Shown in pieces: positions 4,722-60,585 of a stretch of DNA of 64,000 nt. Both the position numbers and the translations under genes were made by a program. Numbering within the stretch: the stretch's first letter is position 1; every line of letters begins with the position of its first letter. Where the stretch lies: IMG/VR virus record IMGVR_UViG_3300020392_000010, positions 1 through 64,000 of that record. One strand, given 5' to 3'. The notes under the pieces are model-generated. The model worked only from the letters and a program-made list of their open reading frames with translations. It did no database searches and was not told where the DNA came from. The stretch is from a virus.

Positions 4722-5093
4722 ATGAATAAGCACATATTCTCATACTATGATTTTATTAAAGAAAACAAATCAGGCGGTGATTTTTTAACAATGTTAAATC
4801 AAATAGTAATGGACCAAATAGATAAAGAAGTAGACGCTATTTCCGCAACAAATGTTATTAGAGATTTTATAAGTAGCCATATGGAAAATATCTCAATGAA
4901 AATGACAGATCCAGAATTTGTAAAATCATTCTATGAAACTTTACAACCATGGTATCATGAGTATCGAAAAGATTTAGATAAAAGTGAAATAGACTATTTT
5001 ATAGGAAAAAGAGATATGGATAGTCAATCTGACGAGGATATACCTTTAGACAATACAGATGACGAAATTGATGATTTTGAATTTGAAATATAA
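4722..5093 (+). CDS. Tagged acidic cargo/internal virion protein
   Basis: This 123-residue protein begins MNKHIFSYYDFIKENKSGG. The first 15 residues follow the tag pattern [YF]xx[FY][IL]xE, with a predicted prohead-protease cut after IKE. The remainder is helical and ends in a strongly acidic tail (DEDIPLDNTDDEIDDFEFE). No enzymatic family is recognised. It is followed by another gene whose start is almost identical (MNKHISKYSEF), so the two are probably related late cargo genes. Confidence 0.68.
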   Translation: MNKHIFSYYDFIKENKSGGDFLTMLNQIVMDQIDKEVDAISATNVIRDFISSHMENISMKMTDPEFVKSFYETLQPWYHEYRKDLDKSEIDYFIGKRDMDSQSDEDIPLDNTDDEIDDFEFEI

Positions 5094-8798: not shown

Positions 8799-8810
8799 AT
8801 ATTGAATACT

Positions 8811-9035
8811 ATGAAACATATAATTAATATAGATAAATTCAATATTAAACTAAACGAGAATAGAGAACCTAAGCTTAGTCAGTTTGTATTAGATAACTTA
8901 AGTGATCTTAAATCTAAACTATATTATTATGACGGTAATTTTGCATTTTTAAAATCAGTAAAAGAACAATACAAAAGAAAAGGTTATTTAACAGACACTC
9001 AATGGAAAGCTGTTTATAATTGTTTTAACAAATAA
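8811..9035 (+). CDS. Small tagged cargo protein
   Basis: The start is placed at the ATG at 8811 (MKHIINIDKFNIKLNEN) rather than an upstream TTG at 8802. This gives the tag pattern seen in its neighbours and a predicted cut after LNE at residue 16. The mature 58 residues are helical (KFVLDNLSDLKSKLYYY-like) and unrecognised. The next gene starts almost identically (MKHILKINEY), so the two may be products of one duplicated leader. Confidence 0.62.
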   Translation: MKHIINIDKFNIKLNENREPKLSQFVLDNLSDLKSKLYYYDGNFAFLKSVKEQYKRKGYLTDTQWKAVYNCFNK

Positions 9036-9045
9036 ATATATTAGA

Positions 9046-12000
9046 ATGAAGCACATACTAAAAATTAATGAATACGTAGAGGAAATAGTTGAAAAACCTA
9101 TTATCAAAAAAGCTATAGAGGCTCCAGCAACGGTTGAGACAATGTTAAAAAGAATAGCTAATAGATTCAATAGTTTAATTAGTAAAAGCTCTAACGAATC
9201 ACTAGATGATAACCTAGGTCTTTCTAAAGATTTTATGGATAGTTTAAAAGGTCAGTTTGAACCTGAAGACGTTCAAGGTGCAATGCAAGATAGTGAAGAT
9301 ATATTAAGATTACTCTCGTCTATACGCCAAACTGAGTCTGAAATGTCAGAAGAAGATAAAAAAGATAAAGCTATGGAAATAGTTTTAGACATATTTAATG
9401 GTAAAGGCTTTGATATAAGCAAGTTAGATTTTAAACTAGATATATTAAACGACAGTGATTTAATGGATGCTAAATCTAATATTATAGGTGTACCGCCTGA
9501 AGAATTTAAAGAAGTTAAAAAAGAAATAGAAGAAGAAAATCCTAAACTTAAAAAAGAAATAGACGTAAGAGCTATTCAAAATGCATTAACACAAGGCTTT
9601 GCTACTTCTATAAAAGATGATTTTGTAACAGGCGATAACGAAATAGAAGGCGTTAGTTTTGGAGACTACTATTCTTTAATGAATAAAACATTTGGACTTT
9701 ATTCAAAAGTTCCAAAAGAATTGATGCATCAAGTAATGACTCAATCACCCGCGCTAGGTAGAGTTGAACTAGTTTGGAACGAAGATAAAAATAAGTATAC
9801 AATAGAAGCAAGTGGATATACTATTTTAATATTAGTACACGAAATGGTAAAAGGAATACTTGAGCTTATATCATTGCATAGAGACCCAAAGTTAGATGCA
9901 GAGGATGAAGAAACGATGATGGCTTTATCTGGAACACAATTCTCAGAAAGAGACGGTTTACAATATGGCCCAGGCATGGTAAATAAATTTAAAGAATTTT
10001 TCTTAAAGGTTGAAGATAATTTATTAAAAGATAGGGAAATACAAGAAAGAAACCCTGCAATGATGCTTAATGTATTATCTAGGTTTTACAAATTAGAAGA
10101 CGATTTATTTCTAAGAGTAAGTAAAGCTATATTCAGTGATGATGAAAATAAACCATACGAATTATTTGAAGAATTCTACATAGATGGATTGCAAGGAATG
10201 GGCTTTAGAAGAAGAGACGATGGTCCACAAGATCCTTCAGATGATCCAGGCGATGGTCCAACCCCACCAAGCGACGATGCCCTAAGAGACTTATTAAGTG
10301 GAGCGGGTATTTCGCTTAATTTTGATCCGCCTTTAACAGAAGTAAACAAACATATATTTGGATTTAATCTATATCAAATATTAGAAAGTAAAAAAGATTT
10401 ACTAGATAAGTGGTCTAAATCAGTAGATAGAAGTGTAGTGGTAGATTATATTTCAAAGTTTAATAGAATAACTAATAATCCTAAAGGTGAATTACAAAAT
10501 ATGTTAGTTTCAAAAATACCAGGTGTTAGAGTAGAGCAAGACCTTAATGCTAGAAGAAACATTGAACAGTATAGTTTTCCAGAGCTAAGAGCCCTGGTCG
10601 ATTACATTGCTAAAAAAATAAAAATACCAGTTGTAAGTAGCTTAAAACAAGGTGACATTAACCCAGCTATTTCCACAATACAGGACAAACTCGGTTTAGA
10701 GAAAACTGGATTTTATGATAATACCTTAGAAAATAAAGTTAGAGAATTTCAAAAAAACTTTACAGAAACTATCTCGGATGATTATGATTGGAGAGAAATA
10801 TATGACAAATATCAAAACGTAGGTTTAACTAACCTTTCTGCTAAAGAAAAAATACAACTTGCTAAAAGTGCTGAATTTATAAAAACAGTTGAAGAAATTA
10901 TAAAAGAAAAAGAAGTTCAAATAAGAAATAAAGTTGCAAATGAACTTGAGAATCTACCAGATGGAAAAGAAAGAAATTTACTAGAAGACGAAATACTTGT
11001 TGAATTTGAAAAAATAACAAATATTAAAAGAGAATTAAAAACTATAAGAAGTATTTTAGGAGGAGGAATCGCTAAACCTAGTGGTAAAATGGATCAGGCT
11101 ACAATAAGTGCACTGGCCTTTGATAAAGGAATATCTAAACTAGAAGGACTAGGGGATAATGGTACACTTAAACCAGTGGGCGGAGAGCTAGTGGTAGACA
11201 ATGTAAACTATAGAATACACAGGGTTTTAGGACATAACTTTTGTGTTCAAACTAGAGAATCTTTTGAAAGAGTATTGAGAGAAGCAGGTGCTACTCAAGG
11301 TGCTTCATATGGATGGTGTATTGCTCAATCTGAAAACTGGTATCGTTCATATAGAACAAATGCATCGAAAAAACAAACTATTTATTTTGTAGAAAATAAA
11401 CAACGTGCAAAATATGAAGCTGAGAAATGGGCACAGTGGCTCAGTCAAAGAAGAAACGGAGGAGAAAGTAATTATTTAAGGTGGAGGGTTGAGCAAGCCC
11501 CGGGTCCAATGACTGGTGCATATGAAAAAATAATTGAAGAAGGAAATAGAAAATTCTATGATAATTTTCATATAGCAGTTGTTTTTGTAAAAGAGAATCC
11601 GGGTAATCCAAACGCTTTCTGGTTAGTAGGAGCATCTAACAATGGACAATGGGGAGACAGCACAGGTAGCAATAAACATTTAAGTTTTAAACAAATATTT
11701 GATAAAATATGGCCTGCTACTGAAGACATGTCTATTAGAAAACCAGAATGGTCAACAGGTGGAGGAGGACCAGTAAGGCCAACTATTCAAGTAACAGATG
11801 AAATAATAAAATTACCTTTTTATCATGTTCCATCCAGTAACGAAGCAAAGGATCTAGAAGAAAATGTATTCTTACCCTTTGAAGTTTCAAAGAGAGAAAG
11901 AAACGAAAGAAATTCAAGGTCAATTGAAAGTCAATTGAGTAATTCTAGCATATCAGATAGCGAGTTTAATGATCTAAACTTCGATCAAAAACAACAGTGG

Positions 12001-13200
12001 ATACAAAATATATTTTTAACTCAGGGAATGATAACTGAATTTTTAGACAATAGAAATAAGTCAGGTATAAATATAAAAATTTGGAAGGTATTACCAGAAC
12101 CCCTTAAAGAGCTCTATATAAAAGGAACAGTGGGTGCAACTTTACCTATTGAACATTTAGATGAAATAAAAGAAAGTCCTAAGTTAATTAAGTTATATCA
12201 AGATTTTGTTAAGAGAAGACTCGTAGGCCCTGACGGTGAAGGAGGAATAATAGATAAGCTTAAAGAAACATCAAGGTATTCAGAATTAAAAAAACTAATA
12301 CTTAGTAATAGTGATTTAGATTTAATAAGTAAACCCTATGACTTTAGTGAACTAAAAAGAGGTAAAGCTGAAGTAGAGCAAAAGTTAAAGGATTTTCCGC
12401 TGTCAGGTAAACTAAGTACTAGGCAATCTATGATGAGAGATATTAAATCCAGAAGAATTAAACTGGAACAATATATGAATTTAATATTAAGATATAGACA
12501 GGAATTATCTGGAGCTTTAGACAGAATTAAAAAAGAAGATGGTAATAGCATAACTATAAGTAGAAAAAACTTAGAAGAATTTAAAAGAATAGAGGACAGT
12601 ATAGAATATTCTAAAATTTTACAAGGCGCTAACTCTAGATTTGATTTTCCAACAAAATCAACTGATGAAAACGGTAATAAATTAAAATTCTTTAGTGATA
12701 TCGTTGAAAAAAATCCTGAAATAGATAAATTAACAACAGATTGGAAAAAGGTACCTAATTACTTTGATAAATTAAGTAAAGGTTTAAAAACTGGAAATGA
12801 AAAAGTTAGTAAAACATTAAGAACAGCTATTATAAAATTAATACATGTTATACTCGCTAGATCAGGTGCACCTATTGAACCAAATAGTTCATCTAAAATT
12901 TTAGAGTATAAAAAAGAATTAGAAAATGCTTTTAATTATATTAAAAATATGAGTGGAGACAATGAATTTGCAATAAGTAGTTTCTTAACAGCAGCTCTTG
13001 GTTATTTTAGAATTTTTGAATATGCTAAAAAAATGAGAAAGGAACAAGCTGATAAACTTTATGAATTATATGATGAAGTATTAGCTAAACATCCATTCTT
13101 AATATCTAGCGGTGGATTTAAAAAGTCTAGTACAATGCTAGGAAAACCAAAAGAGTCAGATTCTAGAGCAAATAGGCCATGGCATCAAGAGGAACTGTAA
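9046..13200 (+). CDS. Giant tagged internal virion protein with peptidoglycan-binding and WC(I/T)A-type domains
   Basis: This 1384-residue protein begins MKHILKINEYVEEIVEK, with IxE-type sites. Residues about 395-412 form an Asp/Pro-rich linker (DDGPQDPSDDPGDGPTPP). A second tag-like peptide follows inside the protein at about 434-447 (NKHIFGFNLYQILE). A peptidoglycan-binding-1-like domain lies at about 530-575 (GDINPAISTIQDKLGL...FYDNTLENKVREFQ). A domain at about 720-880 has GHNFCVQTRESFE, GWCIAQSENWYRSYR and HIAVVFVKE, and resembles an uncharacterised phage domain marked by WCTA-like motifs. The C-terminal third is helical and charged. It is probably cleaved into two or more packaged proteins. 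Confidence 0.75.
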   Translation: MKHILKINEYVEEIVEKPIIKKAIEAPATVETMLKRIANRFNSLISKSSNESLDDNLGLSKDFMDSLKGQFEPEDVQGAMQDSEDILRLLSSIRQTESEMSEEDKKDKAMEIVLDIFNGKGFDISKLDFKLDILNDSDLMDAKSNIIGVPPEEFKEVKKEIEEENPKLKKEIDVRAIQNALTQGFATSIKDDFVTGDNEIEGVSFGDYYSLMNKTFGLYSKVPKELMHQVMTQSPALGRVELVWNEDKNKYTIEASGYTILILVHEMVKGILELISLHRDPKLDAEDEETMMALSGTQFSERDGLQYGPGMVNKFKEFFLKVEDNLLKDREIQERNPAMMLNVLSRFYKLEDDLFLRVSKAIFSDDENKPYELFEEFYIDGLQGMGFRRRDDGPQDPSDDPGDGPTPPSDDALRDLLSGAGISLNFDPPLTEVNKHIFGFNLYQILESKKDLLDKWSKSVDRSVVVDYISKFNRITNNPKGELQNMLVSKIPGVRVEQDLNARRNIEQYSFPELRALVDYIAKKIKIPVVSSLKQGDINPAISTIQDKLGLEKTGFYDNTLENKVREFQKNFTETISDDYDWREIYDKYQNVGLTNLSAKEKIQLAKSAEFIKTVEEIIKEKEVQIRNKVANELENLPDGKERNLLEDEILVEFEKITNIKRELKTIRSILGGGIAKPSGKMDQATISALAFDKGISKLEGLGDNGTLKPVGGELVVDNVNYRIHRVLGHNFCVQTRESFERVLREAGATQGASYGWCIAQSENWYRSYRTNASKKQTIYFVENKQRAKYEAEKWAQWLSQRRNGGESNYLRWRVEQAPGPMTGAYEKIIEEGNRKFYDNFHIAVVFVKENPGNPNAFWLVGASNNGQWGDSTGSNKHLSFKQIFDKIWPATEDMSIRKPEWSTGGGGPVRPTIQVTDEIIKLPFYHVPSSNEAKDLEENVFLPFEVSKRERNERNSRSIESQLSNSSISDSEFNDLNFDQKQQWIQNIFLTQGMITEFLDNRNKSGINIKIWKVLPEPLKELYIKGTVGATLPIEHLDEIKESPKLIKLYQDFVKRRLVGPDGEGGIIDKLKETSRYSELKKLILSNSDLDLISKPYDFSELKRGKAEVEQKLKDFPLSGKLSTRQSMMRDIKSRRIKLEQYMNLILRYRQELSGALDRIKKEDGNSITISRKNLEEFKRIEDSIEYSKILQGANSRFDFPTKSTDENGNKLKFFSDIVEKNPEIDKLTTDWKKVPNYFDKLSKGLKTGNEKVSKTLRTAIIKLIHVILARSGAPIEPNSSSKILEYKKELENAFNYIKNMSGDNEFAISSFLTAALGYFRIFEYAKKMRKEQADKLYELYDEVLAKHPFLISSGGFKKSSTMLGKPKESDSRANRPWHQEEL

Positions 13201-13253: not shown

Positions 13254-15206
13254 ATGAAAATAGTAAAATCTTTTAATCAATGGCAATCATTAAATGAAAA
13301 TGAAAACCTAGATCTTAAAACTGATAAAACCGAAGAAATAAAGTCAGAAAGTAAAGATAGAAAACGAAATAGAAGAAAATATAGAAAAGATAATTGGATA
13401 TCTGATTCTGGCGCTGAATATGTTTTAACTAAAAAAAGAGAAAAAGATCCGGATAAAGATACATTCGTATTAAAAGGAAAAAACAAAAAGAGTCCAGTAT
13501 GGGATGAAAATGGAAAAATCGTAGATGACGTAAAAGATTTTTTAACTCATGACTTAATGGGAGGATCTAATGAAGGAAAATACGATGAAGACTCTATTCA
13601 AATAGAAAAATACAAAGAAGGAAATAAAGACAGGGTTAAGTTTAGCATAGCATTAAATAAAGAACAAGAAGATTCAAAAGAAGATTCAAAAGAAGAGGAA
13701 TCTGAAAAAGGTGGAAAGTATGAAAAAATAGAACTTCCTAAGAATAGAGAGGGAGAAACTAGAATAGAAGTTGGTGAAGAAAGCGAAGCTCTTCTAAAAA
13801 TAAAAGAACTTATTAGAGCAGCTTATAGTAAAAAAGTAACTCTTGGAAATGAATTTGGAATGGGTTGGTTAGACAGTAAAAAACTTGAAGAAACTGATAT
13901 AAATGGTTGGGTTATTCCTTTTAGATTGGCATTTGGTATGAAAAGTGCAAACTTTATATCACAGGGACTTGTTGATGAAATGGTAGACCAGGCTAATAAA
14001 TGGGAATCAGGATCATCTACAGAAGAAGTGGCTTCAAATGAATCCGGTTTATTTAAATTTTCCGACTTTGTAATGATAACTGAAGATTTTGATATAGCGC
14101 TAGCTCAAAAGGAAATAAACAAGGCCGCTGAAGCAACACCTGCTGCTAAAAAAGAAGAACCTGCTGAAACAAGCTCAAACACAGATAGTTCTGGTTCTGG
14201 CTCAGGTTCTACTGGAGGAGAATCAGCTTCTGGAGATGGCGATGGATTATTAACTGATGAACAGGCAATTAAGTATAGAACATGGGCCAATAGCGATGAG
14301 GTACTTAAAAAGGCATATGGTAAACCGAGTCAATTTGATTTAGATGAAACAGGTACTAATAACAGCTATGTTAAAAGATCTTACGGTCAAGCTAAGGCCG
14401 ATATGGATAAACAGACTGGACCTATGGCAGATGAAAAATATAGAACAGCCCTTTCAGCAATAACGGGTGGAGGTACTGCCGCAGCTACTGAAGGAGAAGG
14501 ATATCTAATGGGATATATTCAATATAAAGGAAAAGTTAGTCAACAATATGTACCAGGTGACATTGTCGCTGGGACTAAAGTTTATGAAACAGATAACAGT
14601 CGTATAGCTGTACACTTTGCTAATCCTAGACCTAAAATGGGAGCAGTTAAAGCAGGTCAAATAGTAACATTCAAAGACGGATGGGATGCTGCTGACTTTG
14701 GATATGTAGTAGATGATGTATGGAAAGATTCAAGCGGTAACCTAGGAGCAATATACATTTTCTCACCAAGTTATGTAAAAGAGTACGGAAAACCTAACAA
14801 AGATAGAAGCTTTGAAGGTAAAGCACGTATTGTAGTTACTGATCAAATGAAAACGTCTAATTTAAAAGATAGATTTATTAGAAACGCAACTGACGATAAT
14901 ACAGCCATATGGTGCTGTAACAAGATTGTAACATTCTGGGGTAATGCTTCAAACTTTAAAGCATTTAAAGGAACCTTTAATGATAACGAAGCCGGTGCAA
15001 TTGCACTATTTACAACTTGGTGGAATAAAAATATAAAACCAAATATTGATAAACTTAGAAAGAATGATCCAAATAAAAAGACTCTGACTTCTTTATTTAG
15101 CACTATTGTAAATAAAGCAGAGGGTAGTACATCTAATGACACTGCTAGATGGTCAATATCTACTTTAAGTGGTAGTAAGAGTTATAGTGTAGATACAGAT
15201 TTTTAA
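13254..15206 (+). CDS. Large tagged internal virion protein
   Basis: This 650-residue protein begins MKIVKSFNQWQSLNENEN, with a predicted cut after LNE. A very charged segment of about 150 residues follows. An internal tag-like peptide FKFSDFVMITE occurs at about residues 266-277. An Ala/Ser/Gly linker (about 300-330, GSGSGSTGGESASGDGDG) leads to a C-terminal globular part with GYLMGYIQYKGK and IWCCNKIVTFWGN. No enzyme family is recognised. A GATAAATA variant of the late motif lies upstream. It shares with the 1384-aa protein the plan of leader, first part, internal tag and second part. Confidence 0.68.
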   Translation: MKIVKSFNQWQSLNENENLDLKTDKTEEIKSESKDRKRNRRKYRKDNWISDSGAEYVLTKKREKDPDKDTFVLKGKNKKSPVWDENGKIVDDVKDFLTHDLMGGSNEGKYDEDSIQIEKYKEGNKDRVKFSIALNKEQEDSKEDSKEEESEKGGKYEKIELPKNREGETRIEVGEESEALLKIKELIRAAYSKKVTLGNEFGMGWLDSKKLEETDINGWVIPFRLAFGMKSANFISQGLVDEMVDQANKWESGSSTEEVASNESGLFKFSDFVMITEDFDIALAQKEINKAAEATPAAKKEEPAETSSNTDSSGSGSGSTGGESASGDGDGLLTDEQAIKYRTWANSDEVLKKAYGKPSQFDLDETGTNNSYVKRSYGQAKADMDKQTGPMADEKYRTALSAITGGGTAAATEGEGYLMGYIQYKGKVSQQYVPGDIVAGTKVYETDNSRIAVHFANPRPKMGAVKAGQIVTFKDGWDAADFGYVVDDVWKDSSGNLGAIYIFSPSYVKEYGKPNKDRSFEGKARIVVTDQMKTSNLKDRFIRNATDDNTAIWCCNKIVTFWGNASNFKAFKGTFNDNEAGAIALFTTWWNKNIKPNIDKLRKNDPNKKTLTSLFSTIVNKAEGSTSNDTARWSISTLSGSKSYSVDTDF

Positions 15207-15224: not shown

Positions 15225-15557
15225 ATGGGAATGAAATATACAGTAAATTTAACGGATGAAAATATTCAAGCATTAATGGATGATCCAGAGATGGATGGAA
15301 TAACGTTAGAAGGAACAGCAACAGACGGTACTAAAGTGCAGGTTACTATGGTTAAAACAGCCGCCGCAGATATGAAAACGGATGCAACCGTGGAAGAACC
15401 AGTTGATACTATGTCAACTGAAGACGATTCAGCTGAGCTAGGAAACATAGCTCCAGAAGAGGAAGCAGCTATGATGAATGCAACGGAAGAAAGCTACGGT
15501 TTTACTAATGAAAGTACTATTTCAAGCTTTGATAACTTTTTAAAAACAAGAAAATAA
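15225..15557 (+). CDS. Small acidic virion/cargo protein with C-terminal tag-like motif
   Basis: This 110-residue protein (starting MGMKYTVNLTDE) has no N-terminal tag but ends STISSFDNFLKTRK. That matches the FxxF[IL]x core of the tag without the cleavable Glu. It begins with a beta segment and continues with a long acidic, Ala/Glu/Asp-rich part. It lies in the late block between the 650-aa protein and a helix-turn-helix protein. The ATG at 15231 is an alternative start. Function is unknown. Confidence 0.6.
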   Translation: MGMKYTVNLTDENIQALMDDPEMDGITLEGTATDGTKVQVTMVKTAAADMKTDATVEEPVDTMSTEDDSAELGNIAPEEEAAMMNATEESYGFTNESTISSFDNFLKTRK

Positions 15558-26147: not shown

Positions 26148-27593
26148 TTAAAATTTAAGTTCTACTTGAGGTTTTTCTTCTTGGGAATACTCTTCTAATT
26201 CTATTTTTAATCTTTTTGCTGTTCTTTTTCTAAATTGATGTAATTTAGAATTTGGAACAACCTTTGTATTTAACCCATACTTAGATATTATACTTAAATA
26301 TTCTGTAAAGTCATCGTTTTTTATTTCAGCATTAGGGTTACCTATTATATTCCAAAATCTTTCAGGTATTTCTTCATACTCTAATGTCTTTTCATTTATT
26401 ATATAAAGAGGATATTTGTCTTCATCGCTCAGTGGTTTCTTAGAACCTGTTTTAACCATTTCTATATTTCTCTTTAAATGAACATTAAATTCTGTTAAAC
26501 CTAAAGCCACTAACTGTCTATTGATAGGTTCAACTATTAATGAAAAAAATTGCTTATCATAATCTAGAGGTAGAGCTACTTCAGTTGGATAGTTTCCAGG
26601 CGAATAAGCAAACACATCCCAGCCTTTGTCATTTTCTTTAGGGTAATAGTATTTTATTTTTTCTCCTTCTTTTACTTTTTCGTATTTTCCAATTAAGTTA
26701 TTAGTTACAAGTAAATGATTATAGTAAGCAGCAGCTCTTGCGTAAATAGGAATACCTTTTAGCAGTGTTAATTTATTTTCATTTTTTACATATTTGTCAT
26801 ACACTCTACAACTAAATGTTTGAGCAAGTTCATCAGTTGTTTTTAATTTCATTTCTTTTTTAATAGACTCAAAAATAGGAACTAAGTCTTCTTCTGGATT
26901 TATAGACCTTCCTTTTTCTAATATTATTTTTGTAAGATTAGACAAATGATTTCTTGCCCATATTGGATAAGAACCCTTTATCATTTCTAAACCTTTGAAT
27001 ACTTCGTATTCTTTATTATTTTCTTTTAATAAAGATTGATTTGAGTTAGGCTCATATGAAACCCTAAGTGCATAATTTTTCTTTTTAAGCCACATTGCTT
27101 TTGCGGATAAATTCTCTAATTCAAAATTTTGTTGATTAACAGTGTTAAAGTGTTTACCATACTTATCAAAAGCAGTATTGAAATATTCAGCTAATCTATA
27201 TTCATCTATTTTAATACATAATTTTAAGTATTGATCCTCTGTTAATTCAGGCAATCCTTTTATGGAATTTATAGCTGAACCAAACTCTACATATATAGAG
27301 TCAGTGTCAGTATAGATAGCTGCCTCTGATTCTATTTTTTCTATTTTATATTTATCTACACCTAATTTTTGATGAAGCTCTTTATCTAAATGCCAGCGTT
27401 CTTTAAAGTAATAATTCACAGCTTTAATTGTAAATTTAATCAAGTCCTGCCCTTGTAAAGTTATACTTTGAGCTAAATCAACATTAAAGAAGTAAAACCA
27501 TTTATTTCCAAATGCACCATATATAGAGTTAATAAGTAATTTAATTGCAAGTTGTTCTAAGTCTAATTTTTTGTATAAAGATTCCTTATTCAT
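26148..27593 (-). CDS. 43: Family-B DNA polymerase, C-terminal part (split polymerase)
   Basis: This 481-residue product begins just before motif B (KLLINSIYGAFGNKW) and includes motif C (YTDTDSIYVEF). It continues through thumb-like sequence to a C-terminus. The exonuclease domain and motif A (DxxSLYPS) of T4 gp43 (about 900 aa) are absent upstream, and the preceding sequence is a plus-strand gene. The polymerase must therefore be split, with its N-terminal half encoded elsewhere, or be a remnant. No nonsense codons are present. Confidence 0.88.
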   Translation of the reverse strand: MNKESLYKKLDLEQLAIKLLINSIYGAFGNKWFYFFNVDLAQSITLQGQDLIKFTIKAVNYYFKERWHLDKELHQKLGVDKYKIEKIESEAAIYTDTDSIYVEFGSAINSIKGLPELTEDQYLKLCIKIDEYRLAEYFNTAFDKYGKHFNTVNQQNFELENLSAKAMWLKKKNYALRVSYEPNSNQSLLKENNKEYEVFKGLEMIKGSYPIWARNHLSNLTKIILEKGRSINPEEDLVPIFESIKKEMKLKTTDELAQTFSCRVYDKYVKNENKLTLLKGIPIYARAAAYYNHLLVTNNLIGKYEKVKEGEKIKYYYPKENDKGWDVFAYSPGNYPTEVALPLDYDKQFFSLIVEPINRQLVALGLTEFNVHLKRNIEMVKTGSKKPLSDEDKYPLYIINEKTLEYEEIPERFWNIIGNPNAEIKNDDFTEYLSIISKYGLNTKVVPNSKLHQFRKRTAKRLKIELEEYSQEEKPQVELKF

Positions 27594-56860: not shown

Positions 56861-58864
56861 GTGAATAATTCAAGCTTAAAACCAAGTAATTTCATAGACG
56901 TTTCTGATAAAAAAGAAAATGATTTAGTATTGATCGTTGAAAACGTAGGTGAAAAACTTAATGTAAAAACCAATGAAACTAACAACACTATTTTAGAAGG
57001 TGTATGCGCAGTTTTTGGACAAAAGAATAACAATCAAAGAGTTTACGAAAAAGATGAATACTTGCCTCATCTAGAATACTTAAAGGAAAAAATTAAGACA
57101 AGGCAACTTGTTGGAGATTTAGATCATCCGCCTTCTTTTGAAGTTACTCTTAAAAGCGCTTCTCATATAATTGAAGGCTTAGACCATGATGGAGGAGATA
57201 AAGTAAACATTAAACTTAGAATTTTAGAAAACACGCCAAATGGAAAAATTGCAAAAGCATTAATAGATGGAGGAGTTAATATATCTATTTCATCGAGAGC
57301 AGCAGGTCAAGTTTTAAACGAAGGTAAAGTTAAACTTCATAGAATATTTACATACGATTTAGTTGCTGAACCGGGGTTTACAGAAGCTGTTTTAAAGAAA
57401 ACAGTTAACGAATCCTTAAAAGAAAATTTCGAAATGATAACTGAAAATTATAGTTTATTAAAAGAAAATTCTTTTATAAATAAAGAAAAGTTAGAAGATA
57501 TCTCTGAAAATTTAAATTTTTCAAATAATTATAAATTTTACAAGATAAATAACAAAAATAATAAAGAGCTGACTAATAGTTTAAGCAATCAAAATAATAA
57601 GAGCAAAATGAACGAGTATGTTAATAAAAATGATATGAATCATTATACTGAGATAGTTAAAGAGAAATTTGAATCATTACAAGCTGAAATGGACAAAATT
57701 AAGTCTGTTAATGAAGCTGATTCAAAAGAGGTGAAAACAACAGATGTTTCACCAACTTCAGGTATTGGAAAATACGTTAATTATTTAGCTGAAAAAGTAG
57801 AAAACTTAACTAAGTACACTGACTACTTGTCTGGTAAATTAAACCAATCTGTTAAGTACACTGAACATGTAGCCGAAACTACTAACAATAGTATAGAATA
57901 TCAAAACTACATTGGTGAAAAACTTAATCAGAGTTTAAATTATCAAAACTATTTAGGTGAAAACTTAAATAAAAGCATTAATTACCAAGATTATTTAAAA
58001 GAGAACTTAAATAAAAGTATTAATTATCAAACATACCTTGCTGAAGAATTAGATAAAGGCATTCAATATACTGAATATGTAGCAGAAGGTGCTAATAAAG
58101 GAATTGAATTTGCTGAATATATTGCTGAAAATGCTCAAATGAATAGAGAATACGTTGAATACGTAGCAGAAAAATCTTCAAAAGGAATTAGTTATGCTGA
58201 ATATATTGCTGAATCATTAAACTCAGGTAAATTTACTCCTAATTCTAACTTATTAAGCAATGTTAGCGGATTAAATGAAAACAAGCAAATTGAAATGATT
58301 ACTGAAGGAATAGATGCTGTAATAAACACAGTCAAAAGTGAATCAGCTAGTGCCGTACTAGAAAATAAATATCCTTTCTTAAAAGTATTATCTGAAAAGA
58401 AAAAAGAAGCATTTTATGATCTAGATACTAATACTAAACAAGCTGTTGTAGAAGCAGTTAGAGCTTCAGTATGGTTTAATGAAGCAGATGTAACTGGTAT
58501 TATTAGTGCAGTCGTAGAAAACGCTAATAAGTCTATTCCAAACCATCTTAGATATATGCCAGATGAGTATAAAGCATCTTGGGAGAAGATGAATGAAGCT
58601 GAAAAAAATCAAATTCATACTAAAACTCAACTTTATACTTTAAATACTCCTTATCAAGTTAAATCTTTCTGGGATGAAATAGATTTCAGAGGAATTAATG
58701 AAAGAATTGAAAGAGAAAAAGAAAATAGAAAATTACAACAAATCAACGAGAGCCAAAGTACAGAAGGTGCAATCCCGGTAGACAGGGTAGTTGATATGAC
58801 GAGAGGTTACTCTCAGACTTACATAGACTCTCTTATGAGAGGTGCGGAAAATCGCAACAAATAA
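56861..58864 (+). CDS. Prohead protease (gp21-like) fused to scaffold core (gp22-like)
   Basis: This 667-residue protein starts at GTG. Residues about 40-185 form the protease, with H89 in VGDLDHPPS, the SISSRAAG Ser near 142-145 and YDLVAEPGFTEAVL. A Ser/Asn-rich linker leads to residues 305-458, eleven 14-residue repeats such as YQNYLGENLNKSIN, then a helical C-terminus. T4 makes gp21 and gp22 as separate proteins. An in-frame ATG at 57608 (MNEYVNKNDMNHYTE) could start a scaffold-only product of 418 residues. Confidence 0.9.
   Translation: MNNSSLKPSNFIDVSDKKENDLVLIVENVGEKLNVKTNETNNTILEGVCAVFGQKNNNQRVYEKDEYLPHLEYLKEKIKTRQLVGDLDHPPSFEVTLKSASHIIEGLDHDGGDKVNIKLRILENTPNGKIAKALIDGGVNISISSRAAGQVLNEGKVKLHRIFTYDLVAEPGFTEAVLKKTVNESLKENFEMITENYSLLKENSFINKEKLEDISENLNFSNNYKFYKINNKNNKELTNSLSNQNNKSKMNEYVNKNDMNHYTEIVKEKFESLQAEMDKIKSVNEADSKEVKTTDVSPTSGIGKYVNYLAEKVENLTKYTDYLSGKLNQSVKYTEHVAETTNNSIEYQNYIGEKLNQSLNYQNYLGENLNKSINYQDYLKENLNKSINYQTYLAEELDKGIQYTEYVAEGANKGIEFAEYIAENAQMNREYVEYVAEKSSKGISYAEYIAESLNSGKFTPNSNLLSNVSGLNENKQIEMITEGIDAVINTVKSESASAVLENKYPFLKVLSEKKKEAFYDLDTNTKQAVVEAVRASVWFNEADVTGIISAVVENANKSIPNHLRYMPDEYKASWEKMNEAEKNQIHTKTQLYTLNTPYQVKSFWDEIDFRGINERIEREKENRKLQQINESQSTEGAIPVDRVVDMTRGYSQTYIDSLMRGAENRNK
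57773..58234 (+). repeat. 42-bp scaffold repeats encoding YxxY[LIV]xE units
   Basis: Eleven consecutive 42-bp units encode 14-residue repeats, for example YQNYIGEKLNQSLN, YQDYLKENLNKSIN and YAEYIAESLNSGKF. Seven contain exact (L/I)xE, a potential prohead-protease site, and three more have VAE. The pattern also matches the cargo tags. Confidence 0.9.
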
Positions 58865-58881: not shown

Positions 58882-60585
58882 ATGTCACGTACAAAAGTTT
58901 TTAAACGTACTTCAGATTCTAGAATCCTTAATACTTGGAAGCCATTATTGGAAAGCCATGGTGTTAGTGCTGAAAGCGGGAAACAAGAGTGGTTAGCAGA
59001 ATATGCTCACAACCATGCTATTTTTGATAATAGCGCTCCTGTATTTGAGCAAACTGCACCTGGGTTGTTTTTTCAACAACCAGGTTCTGTATTAGGTAGA
59101 GGCGCTGCTGTAGCACCTACTGCCAGTCAGACGCCTTTTTCAGATGCTGGTGTTAAAGGTTCTTATGCCGATTCTGGTTCTGGAGATAAGTTTCCATCGT
59201 TACTTCCAGTTGCTATTCAAGTAGCTGCAAAAACGATTGGGTTTGATCTTGTTCCTGTTGTGCCTATGGATTCTCCTGTTGGGTTCTTACCTTACTTAGA
59301 TTATTTATATGCAGGCGGTCGAACAGATTCAGAATTTGAACCATATATGGTTAAAATTGAAGGAGCAACAGTAGATGCTCTTGAAACTGCAGGTTTCGCC
59401 GGAGTTAATGACGGAACAAACGCCAATCAGGCAATCACAATCGCTGGTGCTCAAGGTTCTTACGAATTAGTAGGATTCTCAAGAGTAGATGGTTTATTAA
59501 TAATGAAAGTTCTTAATGACGGTCTTAACCCAGCTGCAAGTGTTGATGCTGACCTTTCAGGTAATAATATTACTGCGATTGGTTCAACGAACGGTACTTT
59601 CCAAATAGCTGGAGCGGTATCATTGGTTTCTGCTTTAGAAAACCATATCTCTGGATTTACATCTCAGTCAACTGAGGTTCAAGATCCTGATTTTGTTGGT
59701 CCTTACTTACCTGAAACAGGTGGTGTTCCTGGATCAATGACAAGAGAACAAAGTGAATTGTCTAAATACAGACAAATGGGTCTTAGAATGTTCACTAAAT
59801 TTGTTGAAGCTAAATCTGATCAAGTGTCTATCTCAGCATCTGTTGAGCAGATCCAAGATCTTAACAGAGTTTGGAACTTCGACGTTATCTCTATGTTAGA
59901 GAACGTTGCAGTTAACGAACTTGCACAGTCTATCAACAAAAGATTGGTTGACAGAATCTTCACATTAGCTGATGATCACAATGTTGAAGTAAACATGGTA
60001 GAGGGCGCTGGAATCACTACACTAGACTTAAATGCTGGTACCGGTGGTTTTGAGAACACTTCTACTCTTCAAAGAAGATTAGTCACTAAGATTCTTGAAT
60101 TAGCAAACTTAATTTACCATAGAGGTAGATTTGGTGCTGGTACATTCATGATTACCAACGGTAGAGTTGCATCTGCATTAGCTGATGTTGCTGGTTACTC
60201 AATTGCACAGGCTCCATCTGATATGGGCGGTGTTGCTGGTAACCTATACCCAGCTGGTAAAGTTTATGGTGTTCAAGTATATGTTGATCCTAACTTAAGC
60301 TTTGGAGATTCTAGAATCTGCATTGGTCGTAAAGGATCTGATGAAGAACCAGGTGTTAAATTCTTACCATATATTATGGCTGAGTCTTTACAAACTATCT
60401 CAGAAGGTACTTTCTCACCAAAAATTGGAATGAAATCACGTTATGCGATTACTGAAGCAGGATGGCATCCAGAAACTCAATATGTAAATATGGAAGTTAC
60501 TGGAGACTTAGCTGTTCTTACAGGCGGAGCTGCCCCAAGTGGACCAGCTACACCATCACCAGTTGCACCAATAGTTGCACCATAA
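58882..60585 (+). CDS. 23: Major capsid protein gp23-like
   Basis: This 567-residue protein has the T4 gp23 N-terminal signature RILNTWKPLLESHGV and WLAEYAHNHAIFDN. It continues with VAAKTIGFDLVPVVPMDSPV, RQMGLRMFTKFVEAKSD and GAGTFMITNGRVASALADV. The N-terminal about 60 residues are likely removed by the prohead protease, as in T4. It starts 17 nt after the scaffold gene and ends in a strong terminator. Codon use looks less A/T-biased than in its neighbours, as expected for a highly expressed gene. Confidence 0.95.
   Translation: MSRTKVFKRTSDSRILNTWKPLLESHGVSAESGKQEWLAEYAHNHAIFDNSAPVFEQTAPGLFFQQPGSVLGRGAAVAPTASQTPFSDAGVKGSYADSGSGDKFPSLLPVAIQVAAKTIGFDLVPVVPMDSPVGFLPYLDYLYAGGRTDSEFEPYMVKIEGATVDALETAGFAGVNDGTNANQAITIAGAQGSYELVGFSRVDGLLIMKVLNDGLNPAASVDADLSGNNITAIGSTNGTFQIAGAVSLVSALENHISGFTSQSTEVQDPDFVGPYLPETGGVPGSMTREQSELSKYRQMGLRMFTKFVEAKSDQVSISASVEQIQDLNRVWNFDVISMLENVAVNELAQSINKRLVDRIFTLADDHNVEVNMVEGAGITTLDLNAGTGGFENTSTLQRRLVTKILELANLIYHRGRFGAGTFMITNGRVASALADVAGYSIAQAPSDMGGVAGNLYPAGKVYGVQVYVDPNLSFGDSRICIGRKGSDEEPGVKFLPYIMAESLQTISEGTFSPKIGMKSRYAITEAGWHPETQYVNMEVTGDLAVLTGGAAPSGPATPSPVAPIVAP

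Follow-up and report, generated by a model that had tools for sequence, protein, structure and literature searches.

A second, internal capsid-targeting-like tag at the joint of a probable head-protein fusion in a T4-like virus

The 1384-aa protein P0001 (158.5 kDa; 9046..13200, + strand) of a T4-like virus probably unites two internal head proteins in one chain, a cargo precursor that would be docked in the prohead core and cut there by the S77 prohead protease. The window, which is the whole 64,000-nucleotide stretch of DNA analysed here, covers positions 1-64000 of a virus record in IMG/VR that is 85 kb long, and the virus is T4-like in having a portal protein, a Gp23-type capsid protein, and a Peptidase_S77 prohead protease. 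The P0001 ORF runs without an internal stop, and its full extent is matched by full-length relatives. We infer that the protein is packaged in the head.

A whole-protein scan of IMG/VR and INPHARED for close relatives of P0001 gave no match, and relatives were reached through the portal protein instead; their records are metagenomic, some of them partial. Full-length relatives are encoded by G005/G047 (64% identity), G003 (43%), and G004, which together with the window provide four full-length proteins from distinct, divergent viruses. Pfam and NCBIfam searches of P0001 returned PG_binding_1 only, with no embedded self-cutting peptidase and no known effector domain, and searches of PHROGs and NCBIfam gave no usable match.

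Alignment and motif enrichment identified an N-terminal leader in P0001, MKHILKINEYVEE (residues 1-13; 9046..9084, + strand). A T4-type capsid-targeting-sequence (CTS) leader spans about 10-20 aa and holds an aromatic pair and [LI]xE; the P0001 leader, MKHILKINEYVEEIVE, contains INE and IVE, with candidate cuts after INE9 and after IVE16, and is a near rather than a perfect fit because Ile occupies the place of the first aromatic residue. The tag class itself is real, since the leader motif ([FY]xx[FYW] ... [ILV]xE) is 8-9 fold commoner at protein N-termini than elsewhere in six related records (p 1e-24 to 1e-35).

Alignment, matrix score, and conservation point to a second, capsid-targeting-like tag inside the protein, NKHIFGFNLYQILE (residues 434-447; 10345..10386, + strand). 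The sequence-only reading had likened these residues to the leader of the gene at 4722 and had placed them after an Asp/Pro linker, and both statements hold: NKHIFGFNLYQILE lies exactly there, the gene at 4722 starts MNKHIFSYYDFIKE, and the linker RDDGPQDPSDDPGDGPTPPSD, an Asp/Pro-rich variable segment according to its sequence and conservation scores, precedes the tag at residues 390-410 (10213..10275, + strand). LTE432 stands ahead of the tag and ILE447 at its end. Scored against a weight matrix built from the other leaders, with the P0001 family excluded, the internal tag reaches 13.7 bits; shuffles gave 1.8 such matches expected per 215,138 residues, or about 0.012 for P0001, so that the tag taken alone is suggestive and only mildly surprising. 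Its spacing, YQILE, differs from that of the commonest leader, FIxE.

What makes the internal tag solid is its conservation in position. It occurs at the same aligned place in all four full-length proteins, as KHIFGFNLYQILE, KHIFGWNIYQLLE, KHVNSFNIFSLLE, and RHVLNYQMYEIFE, and ends in ILE, LLE, LLE, and IFE in the window, G005/G047, G003, and G004, respectively ([IL]xE in 4/4); the site upstream of it is SYE rather than LxE in G003. The column conservation score of the internal tag is 2.39, compared with 2.38 for the N-terminal leader, 1.07 and 0.58 for the flanks, and 0.13 for the linker. A T4-type CTS-tagged head protein would have its tag at the N-terminus only, and this conserved second copy makes P0001 a variant arrangement of a T4-type CTS-tagged protein.

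The sequence ahead of the internal tag, the ND domain (residues 28-425; 9127..10320, + strand), is homologous over its full length to an uncharacterised protein of ~430-500 aa that is widespread among phages. Many free ND proteins, among the best 80 loci of 386 confirmed candidates, are ~430 aa long and end in ...DDFLGSLGIS[RL]S, to which P0001 residues 410-425 (DDALRDLLSGAGISLN; RDLLSGAGISLN) correspond. The domain thus stops at residue ~425, as in its free homologues, which puts the internal tag exactly at the joint. Free ND proteins of ~500 aa in G045, G015, G023, and G017 bear both an N-terminal leader and a C-terminal tag-like element that comes after L[GP]E|S and aligns with the internal tag of P0001, and the full-length relative in G004 has LGES and the tag inside the protein. 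Given this alignment, the internal tag is at least as likely to be the tail tag of ND as the head tag of the second protein. A structure model of ND from 53 sequences reached a pLDDT of 80.6 and a pTM of 0.80, a first model from 9 sequences having been poor (pLDDT 50); Foldseek found no PDB fold match for the ND model and matched one uncharacterised viral protein.

The second half of P0001 (residues 448-1384, 107.6 kDa, pI 9.1; 10387..13197, + strand) was examined by profile searches and hhalign. It comprises a PG_binding_1-like segment at 533-572, a WCIA domain at 757-760, and a helical C-terminus. For the WC(I/T)A-type domain proposed earlier, the WCIA motif is present at 757-760; the peptidoglycan-binding domain proposed with it is weak in P0001 itself (PG_binding_1, E 0.015-0.03) and has an E value of 2.3e-5 in an ortholog. 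Comparison of this half with 42 WC proteins by hhalign gave E values of 5e-5 to 8e-5 at a probability of 61-67%, and comparison with a shallow WC profile of 4 members gave nothing significant. The comparison with 42 members suggests a moderate kinship to the WC proteins.

The WC proteins are free, tagged neighbours of the ND genes in many of these phages, with lengths of 480-730 aa. In several lineages, ND and WC form one ORF: L251 (1028 aa), L252 (1121 aa), L259 (1118 aa), and L274-276 (1267 aa), the fusions of L252 and L259 also taking in an upstream tagged gene of ~90 aa. Fusions in lineages other than that of P0001 join two to three tagged genes, and tags and cleavage motifs are retained at each joint. 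The ND-WC joints consist of tag-like sequence, [LIV]xE (4/4 fusions), and then N[ILV]xxAK, for example YLKE|SLRIKLIKKINE|SKYSHISSFNQFKKKVEISVNE|NISTAK and SYEKYHQIFE|NVKAAK; free WC proteins start in the same manner, with [LIVM]xE|[NS]..AK. A cleavage motif is likewise present at the joint in 4/4 P0001-type proteins. Mapping the fused state onto a tree of 43 ND domains takes 4 changes, of which well-supported branches force at least 3, and a history with a single change is found in 0% of bootstrap trees. In this tree, which is midpoint-rooted and does not give the direction of change, the branch of P0001-type proteins is the most divergent. The WC-type tagged protein has paralogues arranged in tandem in L283 (7570-9225 and 9250-10890, both - strand) and also in L254 and L256.

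The proposal that P0001 is a polyprotein of two cargoes is borne out in part. In its favour are the conserved inner motif with flanking L/IxE, the S77 protease, and the separate genes found in relatives, in which ND is free and WC-type proteins are free beside it; the second half of P0001 itself was found only fused, in four distinct viruses, and no free gene for it was found among the relatives. As the first protein stands alone in relatives and independent joinings have kept their tags, the chain is probably cut inside the phage's own shell.

The candidate for such cutting is encoded in the same genome. A 667-aa protein (56861..58864, + strand) combines a T4 gp21-type (S77) prohead protease, recognised by Peptidase_S77 at residues 45-153 (PF03420, E 7.6e-11, over the cut-off), with a scaffold-like region. 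Fused to the protease in this region are eleven tag-like repeats of 14 residues (57761-58216) in perfect period, with the consensus LNKSINYTEYLAEK from five phages, and four relatives show them in the same register. At their core the repeats have [YF]xx[YH][LIV]xE, which resembles the cargo tags and the T4 leader MKTYQEFIAE. A matrix built from the scaffold repeats alone found excess matches at protein N-termini (14/55, p 5e-5), the tag-scaffold likeness being modest for any one tag. Downstream, the major capsid protein of the Gp23 family (58882..60585, + strand) has the N-terminus LNTWKPLLE|S, conserved in G004 and G013 as WKP[LV]LE|[SN]; this is a probable propeptide site of the same S77 protease.

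Taken together, these features suggest the following course for P0001. Both tags, the N-terminal and the inner one (aromatic-xx-aromatic ... [IL]xE), would each dock the protein into the prohead core, probably by mimicry of one 14-residue repeat of the protease-scaffold protein that this virus encodes. During maturation, cuts by the S77 protease would follow [LI]xE and fall near residue 9 or 16, behind LTE432, and behind ILE447. The predicted products are an acidic ND protein of ~48 kDa (pI 4.5), a 15-residue tag peptide, VNKHIFGFNLYQILE, and a basic second protein of ~108 kDa (pI 9.1) with the PG-binding-like and WC-type domains. The ND protein and the second protein would stay in the head, and ejection with the DNA may follow. 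More tentatively, and with rather less than even confidence, we propose that the T4-type cargo tag is a detached scaffold repeat: the core would be built by the protease-scaffold fusion with its eleven repeats, cargo would join through one or several copies of this unit at its head, middle, or tail, and the protease would dice the scaffold as well as the cargo polyproteins, using one shared motif.

The main rival to a cut fusion is that the inner tag serves as a second scaffold-binding site for loading a very long protein that stays intact. At least two tags occur in one protein in many relatives, some of them not between recognisable domains, and PMC9026906 indicates that CTS targeting and processing rest on different residues, so that docking without cutting is possible; the motif by itself is no predictor of cutting either, because P0001 has 26 LxE/IxE sites and most lie within domains. 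We nevertheless regard an uncut anchor as unlikely, as [IL]xE is retained at the end of the inner tag in every full-length protein, independent fusions keep [LIV]xE where their parts join, and the sites lie in a variable linker beside the natural end of ND. A fossil of fusion, in which the C-terminal tag of a free ND protein was trapped when the next gene was joined and is now without function, would agree with the alignment of the inner tag to the tail element of free ND and with the recurrence of the fusions. The inner tag, however, matches the leader in conservation even as the sequence around it drifts, in relatives that are 43-64% identical overall, and the cleavage motif is retained; with the motif conserved, a fossil tag is less likely than an uncut anchor and, in our judgement, improbable.

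Two other readings are harder still to sustain. The loose form of the motif arises by chance at 0.00064 per residue, or ~0.9 times in a protein of this length, and a short amphipathic helix might resemble a leader by chance; this is very improbable given that position and form are conserved in four viruses, that free ND proteins have tag-like ends, and that tags stand at the joints of independent fusions. Least credible of all is translation from an internal start at the tag, which would yield a separately made, N-tagged second half. The tag does resemble an N-terminal leader (MNKHIFSYYDF versus VNKHIFGFNLY), and in T4 the annotation of gene 21' gives a product of an internal start, but the codon before NKHI is GTA in the window and GTT, CTT, and TTG in the relatives, which means that no start codon is conserved there; neither the window nor two of the three relatives has one at the tag. 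In the window, residues 420-479 contain a single start-like codon, GTG465, which lies on the downstream side of the tag. A fusion docked by two tags and cut after [LI]xE remains the reading we favour.

Compared with known systems, this arrangement is closest to the tagged internal proteins of T4 (IPI, IPII, IPIII, and Alt, with gp21), where many proteins likewise bear a short aromatic-xx-aromatic-[IL]xE leader and where the S77 protease and the [LI]xE site are shared; the T4 record has MKTYQEFIAE|A for IPII and IPIII. According to PMC9026906, residues 4 and 7 of the T4 CTS serve targeting, whereas residues 8 and 10 serve processing; gp21 cleaves behind L/I-X-E, internal proteins are co-purified with the scaffold gp22, and Alt is also processed at its C-terminus. 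The CTSs of T4 are N-terminal on single cargo, whereas here there are internal or C-terminal copies and the cargo genes are fused. Another difference is that a single protein here holds both the protease and the scaffold-like region with its tag-like repeats; inspection of T4 gp22 by eye found no obvious repeats of this type. In phiKZ and SPN3US, a distant prohead protease of the gp21 type likewise processes inner-body and ejection proteins; it cleaves many head proteins behind xxE, and a propeptide receives several cuts. Mostly long propeptides are removed in those phages, however, and the accessible portions of the literature describe no joint tags between two cargoes and no split-versus-fused relatives. 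Polyvalent proteins, described from phages and conjugative elements (Iyer et al. 2017, PMC5512222), also carry several domains in one delivered chain, are likened to polyproteins, and are thought to be cut into units. Their cutter is an embedded metallopeptidase, whereas in our case the prohead protease would cut, and each unit in P0001 has its own packaging tag.

No report of internal CTS copies or cargo fusions was found in the accessible parts of the open-licence literature. If the proposed processing is true, it would represent a polyprotein strategy for phage head cargo with the prohead protease as cutter, a packaging tag may lie within a protein or at its end, and many large unannotated phage proteins would resolve into predictable sets of packaged products. 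Imitation of a scaffold repeat also offers a concrete, testable idea of how a CTS acts.

P0001 appears to be one case of a wider pattern, as internal or terminal second tags, often in the form NES-tag-NE, are present in other proteins of several of these phages. Eight non-N-terminal tag matches exceed 16 bits, a score that no shuffle reached; two of the eight lie within 20 residues of the ORF start and may reflect mis-called starts. Just upstream of P0001, sequence and gene placement identify a small tagged gene of 77 aa (MNTMKHIINIDKFNIKLNE...; 8802..9035, + strand), placed like the ~90-aa tagged gene that is fused ahead of ND in L252 and L259. The next tagged cargo gene downstream (650 aa; 13254..15206, + strand) carries the tag NESGLFKFSDFVMITE internally, at residues 262-277 (14037-14084), and this tag aligns in two orthologues. 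It is followed by a small acidic protein of 110 aa (15225..15557, + strand) whose sole tag-like element is its C-terminal end, NESTISSFDNFLKTRK, and a small acidic protein in L089 (8690-8980) similarly ends in ESVLLKFDDFLKL. Outside the window, at G000:70529-71458 (L096 10529-11458), lies a tagged protein with an internal tag (ESNESVLPNFTKFINES); likewise, the protein at 17884-19350 of L108 in G004 has two internal tags and is extended by PG-binding-like-looking sequence. Apart from the tagged proteins, a 481-aa DNA polymerase ORF in the window (26148-27593) matches only the C-terminal part (503-839) of an 856-position T4-type family, and this polymerase may be split.
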